From NCBI GenBank assembly GCA_029339505.1, contig JAQISU010000210.1, positions 10,553,501 through 10,617,500 of the forward strand: a stretch of DNA of 64,000 nt, in the 5' to 3' direction. Within the stretch, counting starts at the first letter, position 1. Each line of letters opens with the position of its first letter. The position numbers and the translations under genes were made by a program. Origin of the DNA: Unio delphinus. Taxonomy: Eukaryota; Mollusca; Bivalvia; Unionida; Unionidae. The notes below the pieces were generated by a model, which worked only from the letters and a program-made list of their open reading frames with translations, was not told the DNA's origin and made no database searches. Shown here piece by piece: positions 1-26,860 of the stretch.

Positions 1-569
1 AACTCTTCGCATTGATTATACACTTCGCCCACCTCATTGATATATCCAATGTATGATGCGTTACCCTTCTTCTTAATTCTACCTGTTTTTTCAGTTTTGA
101 TTTTGTAGAATATATCAGCCCAGTGAGTTATATCTCTAACAAAGTTATGATGTTCTGGTTTCAACAAATTTTTCCTGTTTTCATAAGTCGTAACAACAAG
201 CGCAGGAATTTTTGCTAGTTTAGTCTCAATGATTGCTGCTAAACCCGCCTCGTTAAATATCACGCGTAAATCATCTACTATTTCTTTTGATTCTATTTGT
301 TTTGTTTGTTCAGTTTTCGCTGCTATTTTTTCGAGTTCACCGATAACAGATTTTCCCGTCTCGGGAACATCTCCCAGTATAGCACGCTCTATCCCCTTCG
401 TTGCTGTGGTTACTGGTTTAAACAATTTTTCGGATCCCATAGCAAAATCAGTCTGAAGACTCAGTCGTTGTTGTAGTTTATTCCGTACAGAGTCACGAAT
501 TGGTACAAATCTCCTGATTGCATCCAGTCGTTCACGAGCCAATCGGGTTGTTAATGCTTCATTGACCAT
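1..569 (-). CDS. Hypothetical protein of the Polinton-like element, runs off the left edge
   Basis: The minus strand is open from an ATG at 569-567 to the window edge, about 189 codons without a stop. I translated this by hand. The N-terminus is rich in Arg and Leu and looks helical (start MVNEALTTRLARERLDAIRR). A Lys/Glu-rich middle and a later segment with HWADIFYKIK follow. No family is recognised. Its position at the end of a minus-strand gene set, and the helical N-terminus, would suit a structural or DNA-binding protein, but that is inference. The plus-strand frame at 229-456 is its shadow. An extended left flank would show its real length. Confidence 0.7.
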   Translation of the reverse strand, partial: MVNEALTTRLARERLDAIRRFVPIRDSVRNKLQQRLSLQTDFAMGSEKLFKPVTTATKGIERAILGDVPETGKSVIGELEKIAAKTEQTKQIESKEIVDDLRVIFNEAGLAAIIETKLAKIPALVVTTYENRKNLLKPEHHNFVRDITHWADIFYKIKTEKTGRIKKKGNASYIGYINEVGEVYNQCEE

Positions 570-880: not shown

Positions 881-1237
881 TCAAAATTGTTCATTTTCTT
901 GAATTAACGCCCGTAGGTTTCTAACTTTAGAATTAACCTCCTTTTTCAATTCGTATTCGTACCCCAATTCTTTTCGTATTCGTTCTACGATGGTATACAA
1001 CGGAGCGAACATACTTACGTCACTGGAAAATGCGAGAGAGTCCTTAATAGAATTCTGAATTCTTTTGATGAGCGCATACTTCTTTGGTAGCATATATTTA
1101 TTGTTGTTAACTCCGTATTCTATGTCCTGAAAATCAGACATGATTTGATCAGGATTTAACCCATCTGATAGTTCAATATCCCAACCTTTCAATTTTGAAA
1201 TCTCGGATAAAATGCTATTCATGTTTTCAGAATTCAT
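881..1237 (-). CDS. Small hypothetical protein of the Polinton-like element
   Basis: An open frame of 133 codons reaches back to an ATG at 1282. I prefer the internal Met at 1237, giving about 118 residues starting MNSENMNSILSEISKLKGWD. The longer version would overlap the end of the upstream endonuclease gene and begins with an unlikely HIFHLEIYHYY tract. The protein is acidic/basic mixed, probably all-helical, with no cysteine pairs or membrane segment. It contains the segment DGLNPDQIMSDFQDIEYG. I do not recognise a family. It follows the endonuclease on the same strand and may share its transcript. Confidence 0.55.
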   Translation of the reverse strand: MNSENMNSILSEISKLKGWDIELSDGLNPDQIMSDFQDIEYGVNNNKYMLPKKYALIKRIQNSIKDSLAFSSDVSMFAPLYTIVERIRKELGYEYELKKEVNSKVRNLRALIQENEQF

Positions 1238-1281
1238 TATTCTATAATAATGATATATTTCTAAATGAAAAATATGACGCA

Positions 1282-1773
1282 TTAGACATAACTAAATTGA
1301 ACTTTTTGTCCCGTCCTTTTTGAAATAGCCGTCTTGGTTATTCCCTCTGCAACATATCGTACTGAGGATATACAAATATCGAAGTGCCTACCGGCTTCAT
1401 TCATTGATTGAAATATTTTTTCTTCGTTAGTTATCGTATTCAAAGATTTCACAGATCTCGCTTTTTTCGAGTATTTCCCAGTCCCCCCTCGTTCGGTATT
1501 CTCACTTTGTGTAACAGCCTGCAGATTTGATAAAGAATTGTTTTTCGGATTAGAATCGATATGATCAATGACAGAATCATCCTCGATCAATCCATGGAAA
1601 CACTCGTACACGAAACGATGATTGAGATATTTCTTCTTTCCAGCACCAAACATCAAATACCCCATACCATTATCCCACCCAACTGATTTCTTCAGTCTGC
1701 GGTTTCTTACAACACCATCACTGGATGCTTCATAATTTGTGATCACAGGGTGTTGTCTGAATTCTTGGTTCAT
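1282..1773 (-). CDS. HNH endonuclease with NUMOD4-like and NUMOD1-like domains (homing type)
   Basis: 163 residues. The N-terminal 35 residues (HPVITNYEASSDGVVRNRR) match the NUMOD4 pattern of homing endonucleases. Residues about 50 to 95 carry an HNH core with HRFVYECFHG, the H-x-D pair in VIDHIDSNPKNN and LQAVTQSENT. Residues about 105 to 145 look like a NUMOD1 DNA-binding helix-turn-helix (SMNEAGRHFDICISSVRYVAEG). Such proteins are free-standing nucleases common in phages and large DNA viruses; here the gene is not inside an intron or another gene. It sits on the minus strand between a zinc-binding protein and a small unknown protein. A role in element mobility or recombination is inference. 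Confidence 0.85.
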   Translation of the reverse strand: MNQEFRQHPVITNYEASSDGVVRNRRLKKSVGWDNGMGYLMFGAGKKKYLNHRFVYECFHGLIEDDSVIDHIDSNPKNNSLSNLQAVTQSENTERGGTGKYSKKARSVKSLNTITNEEKIFQSMNEAGRHFDICISSVRYVAEGITKTAISKRTGQKVQFSYV

Positions 1774-1787
1774 TCGTATACATAATA

Positions 1788-2204
1788 CTATTGTTTGTCT
1801 AATTCATCGTTTGGTTTAATGATAAATCTTTCGATGTAGTCTTGAGGAGTTCTTATGATTTTATCCTTGACTCTGTCAAGGATACTGACTTTGTCAGCGT
1901 CAAGAATACTGACTTTGTCAGCGTCAAGAATACTGACTTTGTCAGCGTCAGGGTTAAAATTTCTGATTGATTGTCCATTTTTTATTCTTTTATCATAATA
2001 TCGCTTCAACTCCCTGTATCGCTTACCACCGCAATTCAAACACAACTGAGATTTTCCCCTAACCCCAACTCCACATCGTATGCATGGTAACGGACCAAGG
2101 CTTCCACGACGAAAGCTTTGCATATGATACCCACAGAACTCATTTCTGCATGATTTGTTACACGGGATTACTGATCCAATCATAAGCCACTTGCAGTGAT
2201 TCAT
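1788..2204 (-). CDS. Cysteine-rich zinc-binding protein with octapeptide repeats
   Basis: 138 residues. Residues 1-60 contain Cys/His sets (CNKSC, FCGYH, CIRCG, CLNCGG) that look like two treble-clef or zinc-ribbon modules. A basic stretch with YRELKRYYDKRIKNG follows, then three perfect copies of an eight-residue unit DADKVSIL, encoded by a 24-bp tandem repeat at about 1870-1950. The C-terminus is charged. Function unknown; zinc binding is inferred from the cysteine spacing. It lies 14 nt upstream of the HNH endonuclease start on the same strand, so co-transcription is likely. Confidence 0.6.
   Translation of the reverse strand: MNHCKWLMIGSVIPCNKSCRNEFCGYHMQSFRRGSLGPLPCIRCGVGVRGKSQLCLNCGGKRYRELKRYYDKRIKNGQSIRNFNPDADKVSILDADKVSILDADKVSILDRVKDKIIRTPQDYIERFIIKPNDELDKQ
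1873..1956. repeat. 24-bp tandem repeat, 3 copies, in frame
   Basis: Three consecutive 24-bp units in the zinc-protein gene encode DADKVSIL repeats. The unit is a multiple of three, so the frame is preserved. Confidence 0.9.
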
Positions 2205-2245: not shown

Positions 2246-2800
2246 ATGAAGGAATTAGGGAGAACGCCTTCGAAAAATGCTGATAAGGAGTTTAAGAGAT
2301 TATTAAAAATCAATCCTAGATTTAATCTCGATAAACCCAAAAAACGTAACAAACGTCCAATAGACGGAAACATGAAAGAGTTTAAGAGATTATTAAAAAT
2401 CAATCCTAGATTTAATCTCGATAAACCCAAAAAACGTAACAAACGTCCAAGAGACGGAAACATGAAAGAGTTTAAGAGATTATTAAAAATCAATCCTAAA
2501 TTTAATCTCGATAAACCAAAAAGACGTAACAAACGTCCAAGAGACGGAAACATGAAAGAGTTGAAGAGATTATTAAAAATCAATCCTAAATTTAATCTGG
2601 ATAAACCAAAAAGACGTAACAAAATCAATCCTAGATTTAATCTCGATAAACCAAAAAAACGTCCAATAGACGGAAACATGAAAGAGTTTAAGAGATTATT
2701 GAAAATCAATCCTAGATTTAATCTCGATAAACCAAAAAAAAACGTCCAAGAGAGATTACCCCTGGAAAGATGCTCAATTCAATCTCGATATAGCTTCTAA
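2246..2800 (+). CDS. Basic 30-residue-repeat tract, probable N-terminal extension of the polymerase
   Basis: 184-codon frame made of about five copies of a 90-bp (30-residue) unit, core KRLLKINPRFNLDKPKKR, very rich in Lys, Arg and Asn. The frame ends at 2800, 32 nt before the polymerase ATG. In the polymerase frame the sequence is open back past 2740 and continues the same NLD-type repeat pattern. The two frames part at the A9 run near 2737-2745. So either the tract was once the N-terminus of the polymerase and a homopolymer indel broke it, or the shift occurs during expression, or the run length is a sequencing error. A DNA-binding or protein-priming role is inference. Confidence 0.55.
   Translation: MKELGRTPSKNADKEFKRLLKINPRFNLDKPKKRNKRPIDGNMKEFKRLLKINPRFNLDKPKKRNKRPRDGNMKEFKRLLKINPKFNLDKPKRRNKRPRDGNMKELKRLLKINPKFNLDKPKRRNKINPRFNLDKPKKRPIDGNMKEFKRLLKINPRFNLDKPKKNVQERLPLERCSIQSRYSF
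2281..2750 (+). repeat. 90-bp tandem repeat, about 5 copies
   Basis: Units start with ATGAAAGAGTTTAAGAGATT and are 90 bp long. One later unit is shortened. Copies differ by a few substitutions (R/K, I/R, F/L), so the array is not brand new. Confidence 0.9.
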
Positions 2801-2831: not shown

Positions 2832-5800
2832 ATGATTAGTAAAATCAGAGACTGTTTTAATGAATTCAAGCGTGATGGAGCATCTTATTGTTGGTCAACA
2901 TTTCGAATTGATGGTGTTGTTGATGCTACCATGACTGATGAAAAAGCAGCAGTGATAATTTCACGTGTTGGGGAAAAACGGCATTTTTTCCGAATCAAAT
3001 TCATTATCGAAGTCGATGGCAAATGGATTATTAAGGATAAATTTGAACCAATCCTCAAGAATAAAAAAGCTGTCATTGTGAGTAGAGATTCCAAACCAGG
3101 GATTCTAACCGGCATTGATAAACTATACTACGAAAGATCTTATCCCGTAACAGCAATGGTTTATGGGATATATCCGTTAAATGATAAACCCGATATCGCA
3201 AAACTAGCTCCTATGAAATATTCGTCAGGGCTTAATTGTGTAGCAGAACGAATAATAGAACACTTCACAAATGCATCCCGAGGAAATAAACTAACTGATC
3301 TGCGACGTAGGAAAATAACCGAGTGGGAACTGACAGTGAAACAGCATGGTGCAAAGATTTCTGATATAGCTAAATTAGAAACATCATTACGATTCCCAAT
3401 AACCGTTATGACGATAACCGGAGAGGTTTTATACGAACCGAAATATAACAAAAATGGAGCACCAATACAGATTATTGATCATAACAAACACGCGTGGACA
3501 CCTGCGGTAACAATATTTCCACGAGAACGAACCGTGAAATATATCCCTAAGGAGTTCGTCGGGGATGTTTTCTATGAAGAGAGATTATTTGATGCTATTC
3601 ATGCGTTGTGTAAGGATGATCCTGTGTCAGTGTGGTTACTTAGAAGTGATGAAGAATTCGATCAATTTGTAAAACCAAATGGTGAATTATATCGCATTAA
3701 AGAATTAGATAACAGAATGAGAAAAATCGCTAGTGATTTTTCACCGGAGAATTCCCATGAAAAACTACTCACGGATAGTTTTACTATTCCATCAGTGGTA
3801 GCTCACTTCGCAAGAGAAAAAAACTCATGGCGTCCAACACGAAATGATTTTCTCGAGGATGTTAAATTGAGTTGCGTCGTATTTGGTCATGGAGGACTGT
3901 GGAATACGAAATACTCACGTGATGGTATGATTTCAATTGATATAGCCGCGTGTTATCCCGGAAGTTTTCTCGGGTATGGGGAATGCGCTGAGTACTTCAA
4001 ACGATTTGGACACCCCACGCATGAAATGACTCGTGTTGCGATTAATGGACCATTGCCTGATTTTGATTTAACCGGATTCGCTCGTGTGATTTCATTTGAA
4101 TTAGCTACAGGGTTACATCCGTGTAGTTATGTTTGGCTCGGTAGACACCTATCTGAAAAACACTGGATGCCAATAGTGCTATTGAGATATATGATTGATT
4201 GTGGTATGCTAATATCGTTGATTGTTTCCGAGGCTATTATATGCTATCGAGCTCAGAAAGAAGTTTGGCTACCACAACCCAATCTAGATAGAATAATCAA
4301 CGAACTACGAAAACAGTTTCCAGATTTCAGTGAAGAAGAAATCATAAATTGGTCTAAGAAGTTATTTGAAATTAAAAAAGAACAAGCAAAAGATCTCGGA
4401 AGAAGAATAATCGGTAAATTTACCCAGGGTGGACGATACGATAACGCAAAATATTCTTCGCGGTTGATCATAGATGTCGCTGAATACGATTTTATTGTAG
4501 CGGATTTAATGAAACAGGGAAAACTTGTATCCCGTAAGGATGCTTTTCTATCCAATGGTGAGAAATTAGGTACGGTTGTTACCTACTGTGATGGATATAA
4601 TTCCCAGTACACACACTTAAGAAGTTCAATGTTAGCCTATGCTTCTATTAATCTATTTTCGATGATAAATAGATTTCCTAATACCGCGGTTAGAGTAGCC
4701 ACTGATTCGATGTATATACATAATAAGTACAAATCAACTGTAGCGGCATTCACAGATCCCGAAGAAAATTGGGGGCGTTGGCGATTTAAAAAGGAGATGC
4801 TACATGAGTATTGTGAATCCGCAGACGTTGCCATGGATGATAAATATATTTGTTGTAACCGTATTGAAATTCAATCAGAACTTTCTAATGCACCACCGGT
4901 ATCTGATCCAGTATGTAGATACAAGACAGTTTATTTAAACGGTTGTGGTGGGTCAGGAAAGACAACTCGTGCAATTGAATTATTTCGTCGTGGAAACGCT
5001 AGCGTTTCTAACATGATTGTGCTAACACCGACTCACAGACTCACCAGAGAGATGATACAACGAGGGGTAAATGCTTGCACTTACCATAGTTTCTTTCGAT
5101 GGAAGGGTGACAAATGGACTCCTGAGCGTATGGGTGATAAATTCATTCCTGAAATCTTAATTTGGGATGAAATATGCACAGTGTCATTAGACGTATTAAA
5201 AACATTTCTTGAGTGGTTGTTAACCAAAAACACAAAAGTCGTCATGTGCGGGGATCAAGGCCAACCACCACCATTTGTCGGTGCATCTCCACATGAATGG
5301 CTAAAGGGTTTTGTAGACTACTATGAAGAAATCACCACTGATTATAGATCACTTGATGAACGATTACGCGAGTTCAAAGCGCTAATTAGATTACAACCGG
5401 ATAGAATCCAATGCGAAATAGCGCGTGAAGTGATTTCAGAAACCCCAATGAATGATTTCTGGGAAGCGTGGAGACCAAACGATTTGATCATTGCAAGTAG
5501 AAAAATAGTCAGGGATACACTTCAGATGAAGTTATTTGAATTGCATAAAGAAAAATTTGCAACGCTTCCAGTACCCCTTTGTTATAGGCCATCGGATACA
5601 CGAAAACAGAATATTGAAGTTGATATTCCAGGACAGAATGAAAAACAAATTTTGGTATTAAATGATATTGTGCTGGTTGATATCAATGTCGTTGAAGATG
5701 CATTGCGTGCTAATAAATCCCCGTGGACGCTAGGATACGCAGCAACAATACACTCTTCACAGGGATTGACTATATCGGATACAGTTGTTTGGATGGTAGA

Positions 5801-6185
5801 TAATCACATCGAATGGTCAAATTTAGTCTATCTCGCAGTATCCAGAGTACGAAACATAAATCAACTTCGAAGAGTTGTTTTCGATGATAATGACACAACA
5901 ATAAGTGATATTGATGTTAGCATCATTAATAAAAAACTCTCCGGTTACAAACAACAGGACAAAAAAAAACAACGAGAATTTGATATTGATGCTAAATTAA
6001 TAATCACTTTGAAGAAACAACAGAATAATCACTGCGCGAGTTGCAATTGTATAATGCGTTGGCAGTATTCGGATAAGGATCCTCGCCAATTCACCGTAGA
6101 CAGAAAAAATAACAATCTCGGTCATGTCAGAAATAATGTGATGTTGACTTGTCTTGAGTGCAATAGACGCAACGGTGCTAGTTAA
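2832..6185 (+). CDS. Family-B DNA polymerase / SF1 helicase / HNH fusion protein
   Basis: 1,117 residues. Residues about 360-640 carry divergent PolB palm motifs: motif A SIDIAACYPGSFLGYG (about 368), a motif-B-like GRRIIGKFTQGG (about 525) and motif C VATDSMYI (about 621). The usual NS-x-x-G of motif B is not conserved. Residues about 700-1040 form an SF1 helicase: Walker A GCGGSGKT (about 704), motif II LIWDE (about 776), motif III GDQGQPPPF (about 806), motif V ATIHSSQGLT (about 970) and motif VI AVSRVR (about 1002). Residues 1060-1117 are an HNH/treble-clef domain with CASC, DRKNNNLGH and CLECN. It would replicate the element. No 3'-5' exonuclease was recognised. The 3' end overlaps the convergent integrase gene by 8 nt. 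The true N-terminus may lie upstream in the repeat tract. Confidence 0.85.
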   Translation: MISKIRDCFNEFKRDGASYCWSTFRIDGVVDATMTDEKAAVIISRVGEKRHFFRIKFIIEVDGKWIIKDKFEPILKNKKAVIVSRDSKPGILTGIDKLYYERSYPVTAMVYGIYPLNDKPDIAKLAPMKYSSGLNCVAERIIEHFTNASRGNKLTDLRRRKITEWELTVKQHGAKISDIAKLETSLRFPITVMTITGEVLYEPKYNKNGAPIQIIDHNKHAWTPAVTIFPRERTVKYIPKEFVGDVFYEERLFDAIHALCKDDPVSVWLLRSDEEFDQFVKPNGELYRIKELDNRMRKIASDFSPENSHEKLLTDSFTIPSVVAHFAREKNSWRPTRNDFLEDVKLSCVVFGHGGLWNTKYSRDGMISIDIAACYPGSFLGYGECAEYFKRFGHPTHEMTRVAINGPLPDFDLTGFARVISFELATGLHPCSYVWLGRHLSEKHWMPIVLLRYMIDCGMLISLIVSEAIICYRAQKEVWLPQPNLDRIINELRKQFPDFSEEEIINWSKKLFEIKKEQAKDLGRRIIGKFTQGGRYDNAKYSSRLIIDVAEYDFIVADLMKQGKLVSRKDAFLSNGEKLGTVVTYCDGYNSQYTHLRSSMLAYASINLFSMINRFPNTAVRVATDSMYIHNKYKSTVAAFTDPEENWGRWRFKKEMLHEYCESADVAMDDKYICCNRIEIQSELSNAPPVSDPVCRYKTVYLNGCGGSGKTTRAIELFRRGNASVSNMIVLTPTHRLTREMIQRGVNACTYHSFFRWKGDKWTPERMGDKFIPEILIWDEICTVSLDVLKTFLEWLLTKNTKVVMCGDQGQPPPFVGASPHEWLKGFVDYYEEITTDYRSLDERLREFKALIRLQPDRIQCEIAREVISETPMNDFWEAWRPNDLIIASRKIVRDTLQMKLFELHKEKFATLPVPLCYRPSDTRKQNIEVDIPGQNEKQILVLNDIVLVDINVVEDALRANKSPWTLGYAATIHSSQGLTISDTVVWMVDNHIEWSNLVYLAVSRVRNINQLRRVVFDDNDTTISDIDVSIINKKLSGYKQQDKKKQREFDIDAKLIITLKKQQNNHCASCNCIMRWQYSDKDPRQFTVDRKNNNLGHVRNNVMLTCLECNRRNGAS
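4993..5008. repeat. 16-bp perfect palindrome, copy 1
   Basis: GAAACGCTAGCGTTTC lies inside the polymerase-helicase gene, just after the Walker A region. The same 16-mer occurs once more in this element, at 6428-6443. Confidence 0.8.
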
Positions 6186-7140
6186 GACCATGCGGTGGCA
6201 ATTGAGTATCCTCGGGAATCACTTGTAGTTGTTGTCGAGTAAAACCCCGCTGAGGGGCAGTTGAATCCAGTTTATAGACTGGAGGTCTACCAGTTGATCG
6301 TGTTATACTAGATATCTTATGCGTAGTGACGCTCCAAATAGGATCAGTAGCCCTTTTTCTACCCCCTTCAAGCTCTCCTGGTTCGTATAAGTACCTCACA
6401 ATGACACTACTACCAAGAATTGGTTGGGAAACGCTAGCGTTTCTAGGGAAATCTTTTTGTGGTTGTACGGGTATTGACTTCTTTTTAATCGCGTTGATAG
6501 GTTTCATGTTGATTGTTCTAGTAATCTCGTTATTCAGTGCAGTAATCACAGATGGTAATCTTTTAACCCATTCACTGGATCGCTTTTCTTGAATGAATTC
6601 TTTTGCGTATTGATATCCAAATAACCGCTCAGCAATCGTCCGATTAAATCGTTCTACAATGGCCTGATCGCGATGTAGCGCAGTATGCCCTCGTCGTATG
6701 GTGACATTATGATGTTTCATTGTAGATAACACTACACCCTGAAATTCCTTGCCAGGATCAACCTGCAATAGATTCGGCCAACGCAGAGGACCTCGTCGAT
6801 AAATCCTTTCAAATGCAGAAGCGACTTCAGTGGCTGATTTTGTTTTTAACGGTTCTGCTTCTTTGTATCGACTTGCAATATCAACTACGGTTAACGCATA
6901 TTTGTAACCACGATCATGTGGCAGAAATAATATATCAGCCTGATGAACTTCATTAGGAGCGGTCACATCAAAATGCGAGAATTGAATTTGTTTAGGCGGT
7001 GGTAGATAAATTTGCCATAGTGCCTGTTTGGATGACCAATTAGCCGCAGTGGTTTTTTTCACTTTTGCGGCGCTAGCGAGTTTATTGATTGCAGCGTTAC
7101 CCCTCCAGTATCCCCTCGGAGAATAATAAATTGATTCCAT
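6178..7140 (-). CDS. Retrovirus-type DDE integrase (Polinton integrase)
   Basis: The frame runs from an ATG at 7158 (326 codons), but the start is more likely the Met at 7140 (MESIYYSPRGYWRG), which resembles Polinton integrase N-termini. In 326-residue numbering the catalytic triad is D75 (HQADILFLP), D134 (QVDPGKEFQ) and E169 (AIVERFNRT), a D-D-35-E spacing. The core is preceded by a helical domain with AAINKLASAAKVKKTTAANW, in the position of the zinc-binding domain but without a clear HHCC motif. The C-terminus is basic, with STGRPPVYKLDS. It would integrate the element. The gene is convergent with the polymerase and downstream of the phospholipase on the same strand. All catalytic residues are present. 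Confidence 0.92.
   Translation of the reverse strand: MESIYYSPRGYWRGNAAINKLASAAKVKKTTAANWSSKQALWQIYLPPPKQIQFSHFDVTAPNEVHQADILFLPHDRGYKYALTVVDIASRYKEAEPLKTKSATEVASAFERIYRRGPLRWPNLLQVDPGKEFQGVVLSTMKHHNVTIRRGHTALHRDQAIVERFNRTIAERLFGYQYAKEFIQEKRSSEWVKRLPSVITALNNEITRTINMKPINAIKKKSIPVQPQKDFPRNASVSQPILGSSVIVRYLYEPGELEGGRKRATDPIWSVTTHKISSITRSTGRPPVYKLDSTAPQRGFTRQQLQVIPEDTQLPPHGLN
6428..6443. repeat. 16-bp perfect palindrome, copy 2
   Basis: Same GAAACGCTAGCGTTTC as at 4993-5008, here inside the integrase gene. Because it is palindromic it encodes NASVS in both genes although they are on opposite strands. Confidence 0.8.
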
Positions 7141-7144
7141 ATTA

Positions 7145-7480
7145 TTAATTACCAGCACCTAACATCAATTTACTTTTCATTGCCGATTTTATCAAAAATG
7201 AAGACAATTTTTCTTTGAAGGATTTATCAGGAATAGCATTTAACGCATGAATTAATTTCACATCTGCTAGATGCCTGTGTTGCAGATTGCTGCTTTTATA
7301 AGCAACATCATGAAGGTGACAGGCCTTATCAATGGCGTTTATTGGTTCTTCACCGGGGTTGGGTTGATTTTGATTATTGAGTCTGATATCAAGTCTGGTT
7401 CCCGGTCCACAGTAGCTATATCCTGGGAGGTGCTTTTCTCCGGGGTACTTTGCCCATGGGGTTCCAGGGAGCTTTGCCAA
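7145..7480 (-). CDS. Parvovirus-type phospholipase A2 domain protein
   Basis: 111 residues. The calcium-loop motif YCGPGT is at 23-28 and the catalytic His-Asp pair is in CHLHDVAY at 54-61. This is the arrangement of the PLA2 domain in parvovirus minor capsid proteins and in several Polinton/adintovirus proteins, where it is thought to help membrane crossing. A helical tail follows. The frame is open upstream of this ATG as far as a TGA at about 7519-7517, just before an A9 run in the zinc-ribbon gene. The lipase may therefore be made as a frameshift product of that gene rather than from its own ATG. It overlaps the integrase frame by a few codons. Confidence 0.85.
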   Translation of the reverse strand: MAKLPGTPWAKYPGEKHLPGYSYCGPGTRLDIRLNNQNQPNPGEEPINAIDKACHLHDVAYKSSNLQHRHLADVKLIHALNAIPDKSFKEKLSSFLIKSAMKSKLMLGAGN

Positions 7481-7662
7481 TTTCGCTGCGATATCACCTC
7501 CTCGTTTTTTTTTAAATCAGATCTCATAGACACAAATCTAAATTTCTTTGTACCACATTGCACGCATTTACCAGAAAGCGCTGATCGGTTATTTTTTGTT
7601 GTAATCGTCGTCACATCATCTGTGCCAGTACGCGTTTTACACTTCACACAATATAGATCCAT
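7339..7662 (-). CDS. Small zinc-ribbon protein (DUF5679-like)
   Basis: Residues 1-45 form a zinc ribbon with C5, C8, C33 and C36 (YCVKCKTRT ... KCVQCGTKKFR), a pattern like DUF5679, known from large DNA viruses and Polinton-like elements. After about residue 50 the frame loses any recognisable fold and overlaps the phospholipase frame by 142 nt, so the 3' half is probably not the main product. At 7510-7504 the frame contains the heptamer A AAA AAC in the correct phase for -1 slippage into the lipase frame. Its ATG is only 5 bp from the ATG of the divergent ATPase frame, so the two promoters must overlap coding DNA or the ATPase must start further in. Confidence 0.75.
   Translation of the reverse strand: MDLYCVKCKTRTGTDDVTTITTKNNRSALSGKCVQCGTKKFRFVSMRSDLKKNEEVISQRNWQSSLEPHGQSTPEKSTSQDIATVDREPDLISDSIIKINPTPVKNQ
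7504..7510 (-). promoter_or_regulatory. Candidate -1 ribosomal frameshift heptamer A AAA AAC
   Basis: Within a run of nine A followed by C on the minus strand, the zinc-ribbon frame reads A|AAA|AAC, one of the classical X XXY YYZ slippery sites. The phospholipase frame is exactly -1 to the ribbon frame and opens just upstream, after a TGA at about 7519-7517. Slippage would join the ribbon to the lipase domain. I did not identify a downstream pseudoknot. A homopolymer indel is the alternative explanation. Confidence 0.5.
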
Positions 7663-7679
7663 AATTTATGTATAGAAAT

Positions 7680-8339
7680 ATGGATATAATTGATTTTTCA
7701 GCGACTAAAAGAAGAGAACCAATTAAGCATCATGCAGCGCTACCAAACTCTATCCGGATGATTATAATCGGGCCATCTGGATCCGGTAAAACGCAATTGT
7801 TGCTCAATTTAATAATGAGATGGATGAAGTGGGATAAGTTGTATTTCATTGCCCCTAGCGTAGATGATCAACGATGTTATGAAGTGTTAAAGGATTTTAA
7901 CGAGAATGCATCAGAAATTAAGGGTGAGAACGCCATTGATTTTATAACCGATATCGATGAAGCACCGAGTATTGATGATATTGATGGAGATATTAACAAT
8001 TTAGTCGTATACGACGATATAATGTTGGATAAACAAAAAAATCCTGCTAGAATATTTTCCCGTGGGCGTCACAAAAACACTGACGTGATATATGTCACTC
8101 AACGCTACACTCAGGTTCCAAAAGTCATCAGAGATAACTGCAATTTATTGTCTGTATTCAACGGAGTTGATACTCATACGCTACGAAATATTTGGCAGAC
8201 ATGGTGTTCTGATATGGACTTCAATCAATTTAGAGATTTCTTTAGTCATGCTCAGTCGACTCCGCACGGATTCGCAACAATAAATTTACATGATCCTCGG
8301 ACACGATATCGTATCGGACTGGATCAAATATTCGGTTAA
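7680..8339 (+). CDS. FtsK/HerA-like genome-packaging ATPase
   Basis: The frame opens at an ATG at 7668 (223 codons). The Met at 7680 (MDIIDFSATKRREP) looks like the better start because the first ATG is only 5 bp from the divergent zinc-ribbon ATG. In 223-residue numbering Walker A is GPSGSGKT at 35-42 and Walker B is NLVVYDDIM at 111-119, followed by a sensor-like region with FSRGRHKNTDVIYVTQRY. This matches the A32-like ATPases of Polintons and adintoviruses, which pump DNA into capsids. It is the last gene before the right terminus. Its presence argues that the element descends from a virion-forming lineage. Confidence 0.9.
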   Translation: MDIIDFSATKRREPIKHHAALPNSIRMIIIGPSGSGKTQLLLNLIMRWMKWDKLYFIAPSVDDQRCYEVLKDFNENASEIKGENAIDFITDIDEAPSIDDIDGDINNLVVYDDIMLDKQKNPARIFSRGRHKNTDVIYVTQRYTQVPKVIRDNCNLLSVFNGVDTHTLRNIWQTWCSDMDFNQFRDFFSHAQSTPHGFATINLHDPRTRYRIGLDQIFG

Positions 8340-8380
8340 AATCATTTTATTATTTTTGTTAACCCAGAACTGAAAACTTT

Positions 8381-8608
8381 AGCAGCAGAGAGGGTGGATG
8401 ACAACAAGTTGCGACCAAAATTAATTAAAAAATCGTTTTCATTTTTTTAGTTAAAATAATTTCGTAGGGAGATTTCAATCAATTTTTTGTCTGAAAACGT
8501 TGTAGGGTTCGCCTTTTTTTGGTTAAAATAAGATCGTAGGAAGGCTCGTTTTAGGATTTCAATCAAATTTTGTCTGAAAACGTTGTAGGATTCACCCTCT
8601 CTGCTGCT
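8381..8608. repeat. Right-terminal region of the Polinton-like element: 16-bp inverted repeat with direct repeats
   Basis: AGCAGCAGAGAGGGTG at 8381-8396 is the exact reverse complement of 8593-8608. Between them lie two imperfect direct copies (about 8450-8513 and 8522-8597) that share GTTAAAATAA, TCGTAGG, GATTTCAATCAA and TTTTGTCTGAAAACGTTGTAGG. The outer arm marks the likely end of the element. Confidence 0.6.
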
Positions 8609-13301: not shown

Positions 13302-14369
13302 TTATAGCATACCAGATGTCGTAATCACTGAGCTCTGACTACCAGGTGTAGTATATCTTGTCTTTCTACAACAGACCACGTTTTTAATTCCGTTCCATAA
13401 GGTATGTGTATAGAACGTGTACAATATAGGATTAATGCAGCTATTCATGTAAGCCAAACAATTCGCTGCATATAATATGGATGCAAATGTCACAGTTGAA
13501 TGTTCTTCCTTTGAGACATGCGTATAGAGCATAATAACCTGAAGTGGCATCCAGCATATTGCAAAGACTGTCACCACCAAAACCACCATCTTTGTGATAC
13601 GTTTGCTAGCATGCAAGCGAATTTGGTCTCCATTATTCTGTCCCGTGGGAGATTTTCCAGTTAGGAATACTTTCAACAGATGTCCGTAAAGAACAAACAA
13701 CAAAATCATGGGTAACATATAAGCAAACATAAATAAGCATATTGAAGTGGCATCATCGAAATGGTGAGTGCAAACCATTCCATGTTCGTAAATATGTTCT
13801 GGGCTCATATTTACTTCTTTAGCAATAAATATAAAGGGAATATTTCCTAATATGACGAGGCTCCATAAGGCAATAAGTGCAATGTAGCCGTTTTGTTTTG
13901 TACGCAGCATTATGGCCCTAATTGGATGTGCTAAATCAATATATCTGTCCAAAGAAATGAGCACGAGTGTGTACATCTTTGCAATGTAGAAAACATAATC
14001 TAGATACGTGTGAATCCGGCACCAAATGTCCCCAAACGGCCAGAAGTGTAAAGCCAGGTATATGGCTTTGAAGGACACACAAAATACAACATAGAGTGTA
14101 TCAATTATAGCTAAGTTTGTTATCAGATACTTTGTTATTCCTTTAATTGTATTGTGGTGCAGAATAACAGCTATTGTCAAGATGTTGCCAAGCAATCCAA
14201 ATATAATGATAAGTCCAAATAATACTGGAATGATGATTCTTGTTAAATTTAAAAATTTCACAATCTCTTCGTATTTTTCCATATCCATATCATATGTAAT
14301 GTTATATGTTGACCTGTTCCAGAAATAAATATAATCAATATCTTCGTACATCAGTATCGTACTTTCCAT
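13302..14369 (-). CDS. Rhodopsin-family neuropeptide GPCR, galanin/allatostatin-A-like
   Basis: 355 residues in one exon. The Tyr-rich, acidic N-terminus has N-glycosylation sites (NRS, NIT, NLT). TM1 has G61-N62. C117 (DIWCRI) and C200 (GMVCTHH) form the usual disulfide. TM3 ends DRY at 141-143, followed by IDLAHP. TM6 has CWMP at 272-275 and TM7 has NPILY at 313-317 in AYMNSCINPILYTFY. The short third loop, FWPFGDIWC and the TM6-7 segments resemble galanin and allatostatin-A (buccalin) receptors; the subfamily is inference. The C-tail has a CC pair (VVCCRK), a likely palmitoylation site. Upstream, ATCACAG|GCAGC before the ATG could be a splice acceptor for a 5' UTR intron. All hallmark residues are intact. 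Confidence 0.88.
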   Translation of the reverse strand: MESTILMYEDIDYIYFWNRSTYNITYDMDMEKYEEIVKFLNLTRIIIPVLFGLIIIFGLLGNILTIAVILHHNTIKGITKYLITNLAIIDTLYVVFCVSFKAIYLALHFWPFGDIWCRIHTYLDYVFYIAKMYTLVLISLDRYIDLAHPIRAIMLRTKQNGYIALIALWSLVILGNIPFIFIAKEVNMSPEHIYEHGMVCTHHFDDATSICLFMFAYMLPMILLFVLYGHLLKVFLTGKSPTGQNNGDQIRLHASKRITKMVVLVVTVFAICWMPLQVIMLYTHVSKEEHSTVTFASILYAANCLAYMNSCINPILYTFYTHTLWNGIKNVVCCRKTRYTTPGSQSSVITTSGML

Positions 14370-19890: not shown

Positions 19891-21927
19891 CTATACAATT
19901 TTATATAATGCCTTAGTATTAAGGCCATTAGGATAAACAGTATCTAACCGATTAATCCAGTAACTTTCTTTAATGAGTCTGTTCATTTCTCCGTGCACAA
20001 TATCGATTGGCATGAAAGAAAAATCCCTTAATGAGTGATTATTTGTATTAAAATGCATTGAAACATTAGAGGAGAACTGAGGATCCATATAATTTTTTAT
20101 ATGAAAGCGGTGATTATTCATTCTCTTAGAAACTTGTTGAAGTGTTTGTCCAACATATTGCATGTTACATTTTTTACAGGTTATCAAATAAATTACATCA
20201 GTTGATATACAATCAGTGTTATAACGTAGAGAAAACATTTCTTTAGTATTGCAGCTACTAAAATAGGTACTTTCTGTAATATTTGCACATTGAGAGCACC
20301 TACGTCTGTTGCATTTAGATGACGAAAAACATCTTTGAAAATTTTTTTTCGGTTTAGTTCTGATCAAAAGATCTTGTAAATTCCTAGGTCTTCTATAAGC
20401 AAGAATTGGCTTGCTCTTGTAAAGTGTTTTGACGCTGTTTTTTTCTGATAAGTTAAGGAGAGTCCAATATTTATTAATTATAAGGCCTATATTTGGCAAA
20501 GATGGATTATATTGTATTATGAAAGGAATTATATTTTTATCTTTCGTACATTCTGCTGTATTTAAAGCATCATTTTGGGTAAGAATACAGACTTTACTTA
20601 CAGCAGACTCTATTATATGTATAGGATAATTTCTTTTTATGAAATATGTTTTTAATTCATTTAAAGAATGTTTTAATTGATGATCGTCTGAAATGATACG
20701 TCGATATCTTTTCGCCTGACTATACGGTATGCCGTTTTTACATGACCTGGGATGACAAGACGAATATTCCACATATTGGTGGATATTAGTTTCTTTTACG
20801 TGAACATTTGTAGAGATAGTATTATCAGGATTTTTCATCACATTTACATCTAGAAAGGATACATGCGTAGTGGATGCAGTGTAAGTAAATTTAATTGTGG
20901 GGTGAAAATTATTTAGGCTATTAATAAATTTGTGTAGATCTTCTTCTGAGTGGTTCCAGATCATAAATATATCATCTAAAAATCTTAGCCAAACAGTGGG
21001 CTTAAAATTCTCGTTTTCAAGAAAATCTTTTTCTAATTTACCCATGAAAAGGGAAGCATATGAAGGAGCCATAGTACTACCCATTGCCGTACCCATTATT
21101 TGAATGTAATTAGTACCATTAAATTGGAAATTATTATTTTCCAAGATAAGAGTTATTATTTTACAAATATCTTCACTCGATAGTCTGTTATTATTAAGAG
21201 TGTTGTCAAGAAAATATTTACACGCCTTAATACCATCTGCATGCGGTATGTTTGTATACAATGATGTAACATCTAAAGATACAAGGAGGGAATTATGAGA
21301 TAGTTGTGGAATAGACTTCAACTTTTTTATGAAATCAGTAGTATCTTTAATATATGAAGGAAGCGATTTCATTAAAGGCTGCAAAATACTATCTATAAAT
21401 TTGGATAAGTTCTCTGTATATGAATTACAACCTGATATACTTGGTCGTCCTGGATAATTTAAAGGTAATGTATGATCAGGAAATTTATGAGTTTTGGGCA
21501 ATATGTAGAACTGAGGTGTACGTATTTTGAGAGGAAAAGTATCAAATTCTTCATATACGGAGCTATTATTCTTAGATATTTCATCAATGCATGTGGAAAT
21601 TTTAGATTTAATTTCTAATGAAGGGTCTTTATCGACTTTTTGATAGTACTTTTCATCATTTAATTGACGTTCAACTTCTTTAACATAGTCTTCCTGATTC
21701 ATAATAATAATATTATTTGATTTATCAGCCTTTTTAATAACAATACTCTCGTCATTAATTAAATTATGTAAAGACTCCATTTTTTTCTTAGAAATATTAC
21801 TATAACGTCTCTTATGAGGAATATTGTGTAATATTTCTTGTGTGATAGCTTCAATGTAAAAATCTAAATGAGAGTCACGTCCACTAGGTGGTGTAAAAGA
21901 TGATTTGTTTTTATTGAAATAACCCAT
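19891..21927 (-). CDS. Penelope-like reverse transcriptase with GIY-YIG endonuclease, copy A
   Basis: 678 codons from the listed ATG. The N-terminal part has [18 protein letters not shown] (61-81). RT palm motifs: [12 protein letters not shown] (218-229), [11 protein letters not shown] (278-288) and the catalytic FLDDIF (316-321). A Cys-rich linker (CNRRRCSQC) precedes the GIY-YIG nuclease at about 578-672, with [18 protein letters not shown]. This is the Penelope architecture: target-primed reverse transcription with a GIY-YIG nick. The frame continues upstream of the ATG, and the ORF2 N-terminus lies in the overlapping +1-relative frame at 22139-21864. Copy A has Thr where the other three copies have Pro in MGSPMAP, a usually conserved residue, so its activity is doubtful. 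Confidence 0.92.
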
Positions 21928-23657: not shown

Positions 23658-25263
23658 CTATACAATTTTATATAATGCCTTAGTATTAAGGCCATTAGGA
23701 TAAACAGTATCTAACCGATTAATCCAGTAACTTTCTTTAATGAGTCTGTTCATTTCTCCGTGCACAATATCGATTGGCATGAAAGAAAAATCCCTTAATG
23801 AGTGATTATTTGTATTAAAATGCATTGAAACATTAGAGGAGAACTGAGGATCCATATAATTTTTTATATGAAAGCGGTGATTATTCATTCTCTTAGAAAC
23901 TTGTTGAAGTGTTTGTCCAACATATTGCATGTTACATTTTTTACAGGTTATCAAATAAATTACATCAGTTGATATACAATCAGTGTTATAACGTAGAGAA
24001 AACATTTCTTTAGTATTGGAGCTACTAAAATAGGTACTTTCTGTAATATTTGCACATTGAGAGCACCTACGTCTGTTGCATTTAGATGACGAAAAACATC
24101 TTTGAAAATTTTTTTTCGGTTTAGTTCTGATCAAAAGATCTTGTAAATTCCTAGGTCTTCTATAAGCGAGAATTGGCTTGCTCTTGTAAAGTGTTTTGAC
24201 GCTGTTTTTTTCTGATAAGTTAAGGAGAGTCCAATATTTATTAATTATAAGGCCTATATTTGGCAAAGATGGATTATATTGTATTATGAAAGGAATTATA
24301 TTTTTATCTTTCGTACGTTCTGCTGTATTTAAAGCATCATTTTGGGTAAGAATACAGACTTTACTTACAGCAGACTCTATTATATGTATAGGATAATTTC
24401 TTTTTATGAAATATGTTTTTAATTCATTTAAAGAATGTTTTAATTGATGATCGTCTGAAATGATACGTCGATATCTTTTCGCCTGACTATACGGTATGCC
24501 GTTTTTACATGACCTGGGATGACAAGACGAATATTCCACATATTGGTGGATATTAGTTTCTTTTACGTGAACATTTGTAGAGATAGTATTATCAGGATTT
24601 TTCATCACATTTACATCTAGAAAGGATACATGCGTAGTGGATGCAGTGTAAGTAAATTTAATTGTGGGGTGAAAATTATTTAGGCTATTAATAAATTTGT
24701 GTAGATCTTCTTCTGAGTGGTTCCAGATCATAAATATATCATCTAAAAATCTTAGCCAAACAGTGGGCTTAAAATTCTCGTTTTCAAGAAAATCTTTTTC
24801 TAATTTACCCATGAAAAGGGAAGCATATGAAGGAGCCATAGGACTACCCATTGCCGTACCCATTATTTGAATGTAATTAGTACCATTAAATTGGAAATTA
24901 TTATTTTCCAAGATAAGAGTTATTATTTTACAAATATCTTCACTCGATAGTCTGTTATTATTAAGAGTGTTGTCAAGAAAATATTTACACGCCTTAATAC
25001 CATCTGCATGCGGTATGTTTGTATACAATGATGTAACATCTAAAGATACAAGGAGGGAATTATGAGATAGTTGTGGAATAGACTTCAACTTTTTTATGAA
25101 ATCAGTAGTATCTTTAATATATGAAGGAAGCGATTTCATTAAAGGCTGCAAAATACTATCTATAAATTTGGATAAGTTCTCTGTATTTGAATTACAACCT
25201 GATATAATTGGTCGTCCTGGATAATTTAAAGGTAATGTATGATCAGGAAATTTATGAGTTTTG
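23658..25263 (-). pseudogene. Truncated Penelope RT with GIY-YIG nuclease, copy B
   Basis: The Penelope part has about 535 codons. The frame is open and has MGSPMAP, FLDDIF and the GIY-YIG domain, but the N-terminal part is missing. A few residues at its start come from the palindrome junction, not from the element. It differs from copy A at several residues (for example AERTKD for AECTKD, SSNTKE for SCNTKE). Confidence 0.85.
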
Positions 25264-25272
25264 ATTATACAT
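25246..25272. repeat. Centre of the large Penelope palindrome (27-nt spacer)
   Basis: ...AATGTATGATCA ends at 25245 and TGATCATACATT begins at 25273. The spacer consists of 18 nt that continue copy B and 9 nt of filler (ATTATACAT). The arms extend outward for about 5.5 kb each way. Confidence 0.9.
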
Positions 25273-26860
25273 TGATCATACATTACCTTTAAATTATCCA
25301 GGACGACCAATTATATCAGGTTGTAATTCAAATACAGAGAACTTATCCAAATTTATAGATAGTATTTTGCAGCCTTTAATGAAATCGCTTCCTTCATATA
25401 TTAAAGATACTACTGATTTCATAAAAAAGTTGAAGTCTATTCCACAACTATCTCATAATTCCCTCCTTGTATCTTTAGATGTTACATCATTGTATACAAA
25501 CATACCGCATGCAGATGGTATTAAGGCGTGTAAATATTTTCTTGACAACACTCTTAATAATAACAGACTATCGAGTGAAGATATTTGTAAAATAATAACT
25601 CTTATCTTGGAAAATAATAATTTCCAATTTAATGGTACTAATTACATTCAAATAATGGGTACGGCAATGGGTAGTCCTATGGCTCCTTCATATGCTTCCC
25701 TTTTCATGGGTAAATTAGAAAAAGATTTTCTTGAAAACGAGAATTTTAAGCCCACTGTTTGGCTAAGATTTTTAGATGATATATTTATGATCTGGAACCA
25801 CTCAGAAGAAGATCTACACAAATTTATTAATAGCCTAAATAATTTTCACCCCACAATTAAATTTACTTACACTGCATCCACTACGCATGTATCCTTTCTA
25901 GATGTAAATGTGATGAAAAATCCTGATAATACTATCTCTACAAATGTTCACGTAAAAGAAACTAATATCCACCAATATGTGGAATATTCGTCTTGTCATC
26001 CCAGGTCATGTAAAAACGGCATACCGTATAGTCAGGCGAAAAGATATCGACGTATCATTTCAGACGATCATCAATTAAAACATTCTTTAAATGAATTAAA
26101 AACATATTTCATAAAAAGAAATTATCCTATACATATAATAGAGTCTGCTGTAAGTAAAGTCTGTATTCTTACCCAAAATGATGCTTTAAATACAGCAGAA
26201 TGTACGAAAGATAAAAATATAATTCCTTTCATAATACAATATAATCCATCTTTGCCAAATATAGGCCTTATAATTAATAAATATTGGACTCTCCTTAACT
26301 TATCAGAAAAAAACAGCGTCAAAACACTTTACAAGAGCAAGCCAATTCTTGCTTATAGAAGACCTAGGAATTTACAAGATCTTTTGATCAGAACTAAACC
26401 GAAAAAAAATTTTCAAAGATGTTTTTCGTCATCTAAATGCAACAGACGTAGGTGCTCTCAATGTGCAAATATTACAGAAAGTACCTATTTTAGTAGCTGC
26501 AATACTAAAGAAATGTTTTCTCTACGTTATAACACTGATTGTATATCAACTGATGTAATTTATTTGATAACCTGTAAAAAATGTAACATGCAATATGTTG
26601 GACAAACACTTCAACAAGTTTCTAAGAGAATGAATAATCACCGCTTTCATATAAAAAATTATATGGATCCTCAGTTCTCCTCTAATGTTTCAATGCATTT
26701 TAATACAAATAATCACTCATTAAGGGATTTTTCTTTCATGCCAATCGATATTGTGCACGGAGAAATGAACAGACTCATTAAAGAAAGTTACTGGATTAAT
26801 CGGTTAGATACTGTTTATCCTAATGGCCTTAATACTAAGGCATTATATAAAATTGTATAG
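25273..26860 (+). pseudogene. Truncated Penelope RT with GIY-YIG nuclease, copy C
   Basis: The open frame (first ATG at 25367) includes MGSPMAP, FLDDIF and the complete GIY-YIG nuclease. The N-terminal ORF2 region and ORF1 are missing. It is nearly identical to copy B, but with Cys as in copy A at AECTKD and SCNTKE. Confidence 0.85.

Follow-up and report, generated by a model that had tools for sequence, protein, structure and literature searches.

In a 64,000-nucleotide stretch of the unionid bivalve Unio delphinus (assembly GCA_029339505.1, contig JAQISU010000210.1, positions 10,553,501 to 10,617,500 of the forward strand; hereafter the window), one uninterrupted open reading frame (ORF) encodes a protein in which the predicted palm of a protein-primed family B DNA polymerase (pPolB) is followed by a superfamily 1 (SF1) helicase and a C-terminal HNH tail. 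The first-pass annotation of this DNA had proposed such a single-frame fusion, and an alignment of related proteins bears out the positions it gave for motifs A, B-like and C, for the helicase motifs and for the C-terminal CxxC...CxxC module. The ORF lies in an element of 15,274 bp by coordinates, bounded by inverted repeats of ~248 bp, which runs from position 2335 of a 9-kb piece to the left of the window (L009) to window position 8608. The features are listed in Table 1. L009 encodes a double-jelly-roll (DJR) capsid protein (PF21738, 4e-16) and further ORFs, an adenovirus-type C5 protease there is a weak match (E 0.0019, below the curated cut-off).

The palm was identified by its fold. The full-length structure model (pLDDT 64, pTM 0.38) was too weak for the palm, and residues 1-690 were therefore refolded. 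A structure search of the predicted model and an alignment with phi29 polymerase agree that the N-terminal part belongs to PolB, as the first-pass annotation supposed. The phi29 alignment starts at model residue 230 and chain residue 52 and covers chain residues 52-499, and the top match in a viral structure library is the pPolB of the mavirus virophage (E 6e-11); the second-ranked entry there, H6WBE3, bears no protein name and was set aside. The spacings between motifs A and B and between B and C, where the candidate TPR1 and TPR2 insertions would lie, are 158 and 95 residues (142 and 65 in phi29, 128 and 80 in PRD1). Alignment A1 has 22 rows and includes 21 of 37 relatives; it was made when 32 were known and omits mostly shorter ones, and also P0004 and P0007. 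The motif A aspartate D370 is kept in all 20 rows with letters there, and the motif B lysine K529 and the second motif C aspartate D625 are kept in all 22. Motif C reads ATD in 21 proteins and AID in one, so that alanine (Ala623) replaces the first aspartate throughout. No exonuclease signature was found: residues 231-345 hold no acidic residue present in at least 90% of the rows, bar one column with letters in only two rows. The DFET motif of phi29 occupies residues 8-11 of the protein in its record, and the structural alignment begins beyond it.

The SF1 helicase is present both by sequence match and by predicted fold. The HNH tail follows in 21 of the 22 aligned proteins, the sole exception stopping before it, and is kept at the extreme C-terminus down to ~28-31% identity. 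The fusion is thus retained in homologues, in which motif C also aligns without exception. An intein was considered for the HNH and set aside, as no C-extein lies downstream.

Upstream of the palm, Cys136 is conserved in all 22 proteins, and H217 and H220 in the 20 rows with letters (two are gapped). Residues 1-130 are modelled as an alpha/beta region with moderate confidence, and pLDDT around the putative vOTU protease is mixed, falling below 50 at residues 118-132 and 217-227. Structure searches gave no match for the N-terminal 230 residues, although by the tool's own note a match stays possible.

Table 1. The replication protein and the other features of the element, in window positions
Feature	Position	Strand	Evidence or remark
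pPolB-SF1 helicase-HNH replication protein, 1117 aa	2832..6185	+	one uninterrupted frame
Putative vOTU protease nucleophile Cys136, within invariant NCVA	3237..3239	+	His217 to His220 at 3480-3491
Degenerate exonuclease-domain remnant, residues 231-345	3522..3866	+	phi29 structural alignment; acidic-residue conservation
Protein-primed PolB palm region (predicted fold)	3867..4901	+	motif A 3933-3962, motif C 4695-4715
SF1 helicase, Pif1/RecD2/Dda type	4902..5891	+	Walker A 4941-4967
C-terminal HNH / endonuclease VII-like tail	5922..6182	+	phrog_1035, 6e-8
ORF crossing the left window edge, no family match	3..569	-	
ORF, function not assigned	881..1282	-	
Separate HNH_3 endonuclease	1282..1773	-	PF13392, 9e-13
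Cys-rich ORF with 24-bp tandem repeat, function not assigned	1788..2204	-	
ORF of ~30-aa tandem repeats, in another frame than 2832-6185	2246..2800	+	
Retroviral-type integrase, DD35E (D75, D134, E169)	6178..7158	-	PF00665, 1.5e-8; residue spacing
Phospholipase A2-like protein	7145..7480	-	PF08398, 2.9e-12
Zinc-ribbon protein, DUF5679	7339..7662	-	PF18930, 7e-14
A32-type packaging ATPase	7668..8339	+	PF04665, 3e-12
Right terminal inverted repeat	8361..8608		left partner starts at L009 position 2335, ~6.7 kb left of the window
5-bp target site duplication TCCTA	8609..8613		

Copies were scored across the 2.5-Gb genome (1246 contigs). There are at least 41, the window's included, with 98-100% protein identity. 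Among the 41 listed, 38 have no stop inside the match; the frames measure 1291-1336 aa in 25 (two with internal stops) and at most 1231 aa in 16. Intact frames longer than the window's thus occur, and the product of the window's copy may be shorter at its N-terminus. Tandem repeats of 90 and 45 bp (window 2288-2623 and 2576-2662) encode a lysine-rich repeat ahead of the polymerase, which may form an N-terminal extension in copies with longer frames.

Target duplications were examined in 11 copies, including the window's, of which C54 lacks the left end and C8 the right end in the fetched pieces. Each of the nine copies with both ends has a 5-bp duplication, every one of a different sequence; the range for Polintons is 5-6 bp. 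The terminal repeats of five of the nine are identical over their aligned length (235, 235, 230, 175 and 118 bases, with two alignments ending at the edge of the piece), and the other pairs agree at 232/235, 227/229, 221/235 (C239) and 188/235 (C28) positions. Distinct duplications and mostly near-identical repeat pairs point to independent and mostly recent insertions. The terminal repeats are themselves bounded by 15-bp inverted repeats (GCAGCAGAGAGGGTG / CACCCTCTCTGCTGC), at window 8382-8396 and 8593-8607 and at L009 2336-2350 and 2547-2561, through which each end of the element could fold back.

The copies carry a signal of purifying selection on the replication protein. For the main count the copies ranked 1-28 of the 41 were fetched, 27 passed the filter (L052 failed solely through a Walker A substitution) and the count used the 23 that are 3351 long, including two that each hold a single stop. 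Their median pairwise divergence is 1.25%. Changes common to at least two copies have a per-site ratio of nonsynonymous to synonymous changes (N/S) of 0.14 (30 N, 57 S). By segment this ratio is 0.09 for the N-terminal/vOTU part, 0.13 for the palm, 0.13 for the helicase and 0.18 for the HNH, all on small counts. None of the 13 residues checked in the candidate protease, the polymerase, the helicase and the HNH varies among the 23 copies. In an earlier count on seven of the eight first-fetched copies (L006 was excluded for its length), the window's copy gave dN/dS of 0.17-0.20 against the six others; among themselves these gave 0.40 to 2.43 in 14 pairs and an undefined value in one, on very few changes. 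The pattern fits a source lineage under selection whose copies are relaxed after insertion, with a split that is not clean, as singleton changes too fall below 1.

Two protein searches yielded the 37 relatives; the second, a profile search, gave 15 matches, five of them new and one of these 15 from the unionid bivalve Sinanodonta woodiana. The other named sources are the fungi Gigaspora margarita (Glomeromycota) and Cetraspora pellucida, and the remaining relatives appear from their source tags to be environmental or read-archive entries. In a tree of 35 relatives (36 rows), which covers solely proteins found in these searches, the window protein groups with P0002-P0005 and the S. woodiana protein (SH-aLRT 100), separate from the fungal rows and the rest; the S. 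woodiana row is long and its placement unsure. A second alignment, A2, holds 33 relatives. The capsid protein gave 44 matches, and two Unionidae are among their sources: S. woodiana, 62% identical across 62% of the query, and Potamilus streckersoni, 50% identical across 43%. Among 66 pattern matches in IMG/VR viral contigs one encodes a relative, over residues 694-1005 only and at 28% identity. The relatives P0030-P0033 (G. margarita) and P0027 (C. pellucida) belong to arbuscular mycorrhizal fungi, which the passages of the literature cited below do not name as hosts of this lineage.

Fusions of pPolB with an SF1 helicase (pPolB-S1H) are known. PMC11071308 describes the Tlr1-like helicases as a pPolB palm with TPR1 and TPR2, a changed first aspartate in motif C and a vOTU beside the palm, followed by the SF1 helicase and, in different polinton-like viruses (PLVs), by a C-terminal HNH or GIY-YIG domain; the exonuclease of pPolB-S1H proteins is lost. 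The suggestion of a new replication module in the first-pass annotation is therefore wrong. In the papers cited, pPolB-S1H proteins come from a ciliate, from algal and metagenomic viruses and from transpovirons (PMC11071308, PMC12721341, PMC4642659). The window protein resembles the pPolB-S1H of PLVs, Tlr1 and transpovirons in its order of palm and helicase, C-terminal HNH or GIY-YIG domain (in some), lost exonuclease, altered motif C and conserved Cys/His upstream of the palm. It differs in its animal host, in an HNH that is nearly constant in this lineage (21 of 22) and in N-terminal domains that match no known primer domain. The Tlr1 element of Tetrahymena thermophila shares the rve integrase, pPolB-S1H, capsid proteins and packaging ATPase (PMC11071308, PMC4642659), but its protein ends in GIY-YIG and its host is a ciliate (PMC12721341). 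In the endogenous PLV of the dinoflagellate Oxyrrhis marina (OmPLV), too, one protein combines an SF1 helicase with pPolB; there the helicase comes first, the exonuclease is kept and the authors infer an independent origin (PMC12721341), whereas here the palm precedes the helicase and the exonuclease signature is absent. The mavirus pPolB has likewise lost most of its exonuclease, its helicase being a separate superfamily 3 gene (PMC11071308).

The label Polinton-type suits the element, but the polymerase is not that of a canonical Polinton. Polintons/Mavericks in the strict sense and adintoviruses share with this element the rve integrase, inverted repeats, DJR capsid protein, A32-type ATPase and adenain-like protease (weak here), and the 5-bp target duplication also agrees with Polintons. 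Their polymerase is arranged as TP-vOTU-EXO-PALM, with a 3'-5' exonuclease (EXO) and no fused SF1 helicase (PMC11071308), and neither property is found here. In the data of PMC10120064 no metazoan capsid genes except those of cnidarians fall outside the main Maverick-Polinton cluster. Among open-licence PMC papers we found none that places a pPolB-S1H protein in an animal. The architecture is already known from protist and algal elements, and what looks new is its spread in an animal.

The observations cover the element's anatomy, the predicted folds of palm and helicase, the match of the tail to HNH, the missing exonuclease signature, the recent spread and the purifying-selection signal. The ORF very probably encodes a replication protein of Tlr1 type, a pPolB-S1H fusion ending in HNH, and the element that carries it is very probably an integrated polinton-like virus (endogenous Preplasmiviricota). 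Several points weigh against this assignment or parts of it. Pfam gave no PolB family in P0001 at E<=1, the 22 members of A1 matched 19 families of which none is PolB, and hhalign gave no match to phi29 and PRD1 (E 0.41), which we ascribe to shallow profiles (Neff 2.4 and 1.6). The full-length model is mediocre, and the motif A stretch is missing from both G. margarita rows. The vOTU and primer domains are putative, being proposed from conserved residues and position with no fold match. Singleton changes among the 23 copies also have an N/S below 1 (0.36; 84 N, 63 S), the exonuclease remnant has a shared-change N/S of 0.34 on small counts, and the counts per segment are few (four N and five S shared changes for the HNH). 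Canonical HNH domains have their first histidine at the position equivalent to Arg1091, and since this arginine occupies that place in all 21 rows with letters, nuclease activity of the tail is uncertain. Membership of the Tlr1-like group is judged from published descriptions. Loss of the first motif C aspartate was formerly taken as a sign of an inactive polymerase (PMC11071308).

This last point bears on the idea that the palm is a relic scaffold, the protein acting as a helicase-nuclease while a host polymerase copies the element. The aspartate is lost in every aligned protein and the exonuclease signature has gone as well, but mavirus and other PolBs without the same aspartate are active (PMC11071308). 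The remaining catalytic residues are kept in the alignment, D370, K529 and D625 are unchanged in all 23 copies counted, and the palm is as constrained as the helicase. The selection pattern across copies speaks against a relic palm, and we regard this explanation as unlikely. Still less probable is a canonical Polinton or adintovirus with a polymerase that acquired its helicase and HNH independently, making the fusion local and new. The Polinton-like gene set with its rve integrase and the animal host would suit such an origin, but relatives outside animals have the fusion (G. margarita, in partial gene models, and other entries), the canonical exonuclease signature is absent and the same architecture is published (PMC11071308).

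The HNH tail could also be a selfish homing endonuclease that rides on the replication gene and stands outside replication, a serious contender to which we nevertheless give less than even weight. The HNH or GIY-YIG domains in this place of Tlr1-like proteins have been interpreted as intein invasions (PMC11071308), and the element holds a separate HNH_3 gene. The near-universal presence of the tail in divergent relatives, its place at the extreme end of the protein, where no C-extein follows, and its low shared-change ratio, albeit on few counts, speak against a passenger.

For the Tlr1-type replication protein, the most likely mode of action is that a single multidomain protein carries out protein-primed, strand-displacing replication, with integration left to the DD35E integrase. 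The inverted repeats at the linear DNA ends would serve as origins, an N-terminal domain would supply the protein primer and the putative vOTU protease may cleave off this primer domain. The palm would copy the DNA by strand displacement while the fused helicase opens the duplex, perhaps compensating for the lost exonuclease, and the HNH tail may nick branched or end-linked intermediates. New copies would then be packaged, inserted by the integrase with 5-bp duplications, or both. A bolder version is that a Tlr1-lineage PLV is now spreading in an animal with a self-contained one-protein replisome, comprising putative primer and protease, an active ATD palm, the SF1 helicase and an HNH that is a fixed part of replication and not an intein or passenger; taken as a whole we consider this speculative and rather doubtful. 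With its 41 or more near-identical copies, this animal genome offers an accessible system for asking whether a palm whose motif C reads ATD copies DNA and whether a fused helicase stands in for a lost exonuclease. The host range of the Tlr1-like branch would also widen beyond the canonical Polintons and adintoviruses that are usually reported from animals.

A rhodopsin-type G-protein-coupled receptor gene, whose closest resemblance is to nociceptin and galanin receptors, lies at window 13302-14369, ~4.7 kb from the element, and points to an animal genome; the mussel relatives make a mollusc likely. Further along is a near-identical pair of ORFs ending in GIY-YIG (19891-21927 and 23658-25310; one GIY-YIG match is just under the cut-off), which we take to be Penelope-like elements, and a reverse transcriptase was detected in one of the two. 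Elsewhere in the assembly are two COX1 matches, neither of which was taken as evidence on the host. A 36-kb contig encodes a divergent COX1 with an internal insertion (G000:C871:5786-7345; L012, L013), in which TGA is read as Trp and AGA seemingly as Arg. This reading of AGA is unlike invertebrate mitochondria, and judged by eye the contig is probably mitochondrial DNA of a protist, perhaps a ciliate. A COX1 without stops under the standard code lies on a 192-kb contig (G000:C445:76315-77646; L011), which is perhaps from a bacterial associate or contaminant.
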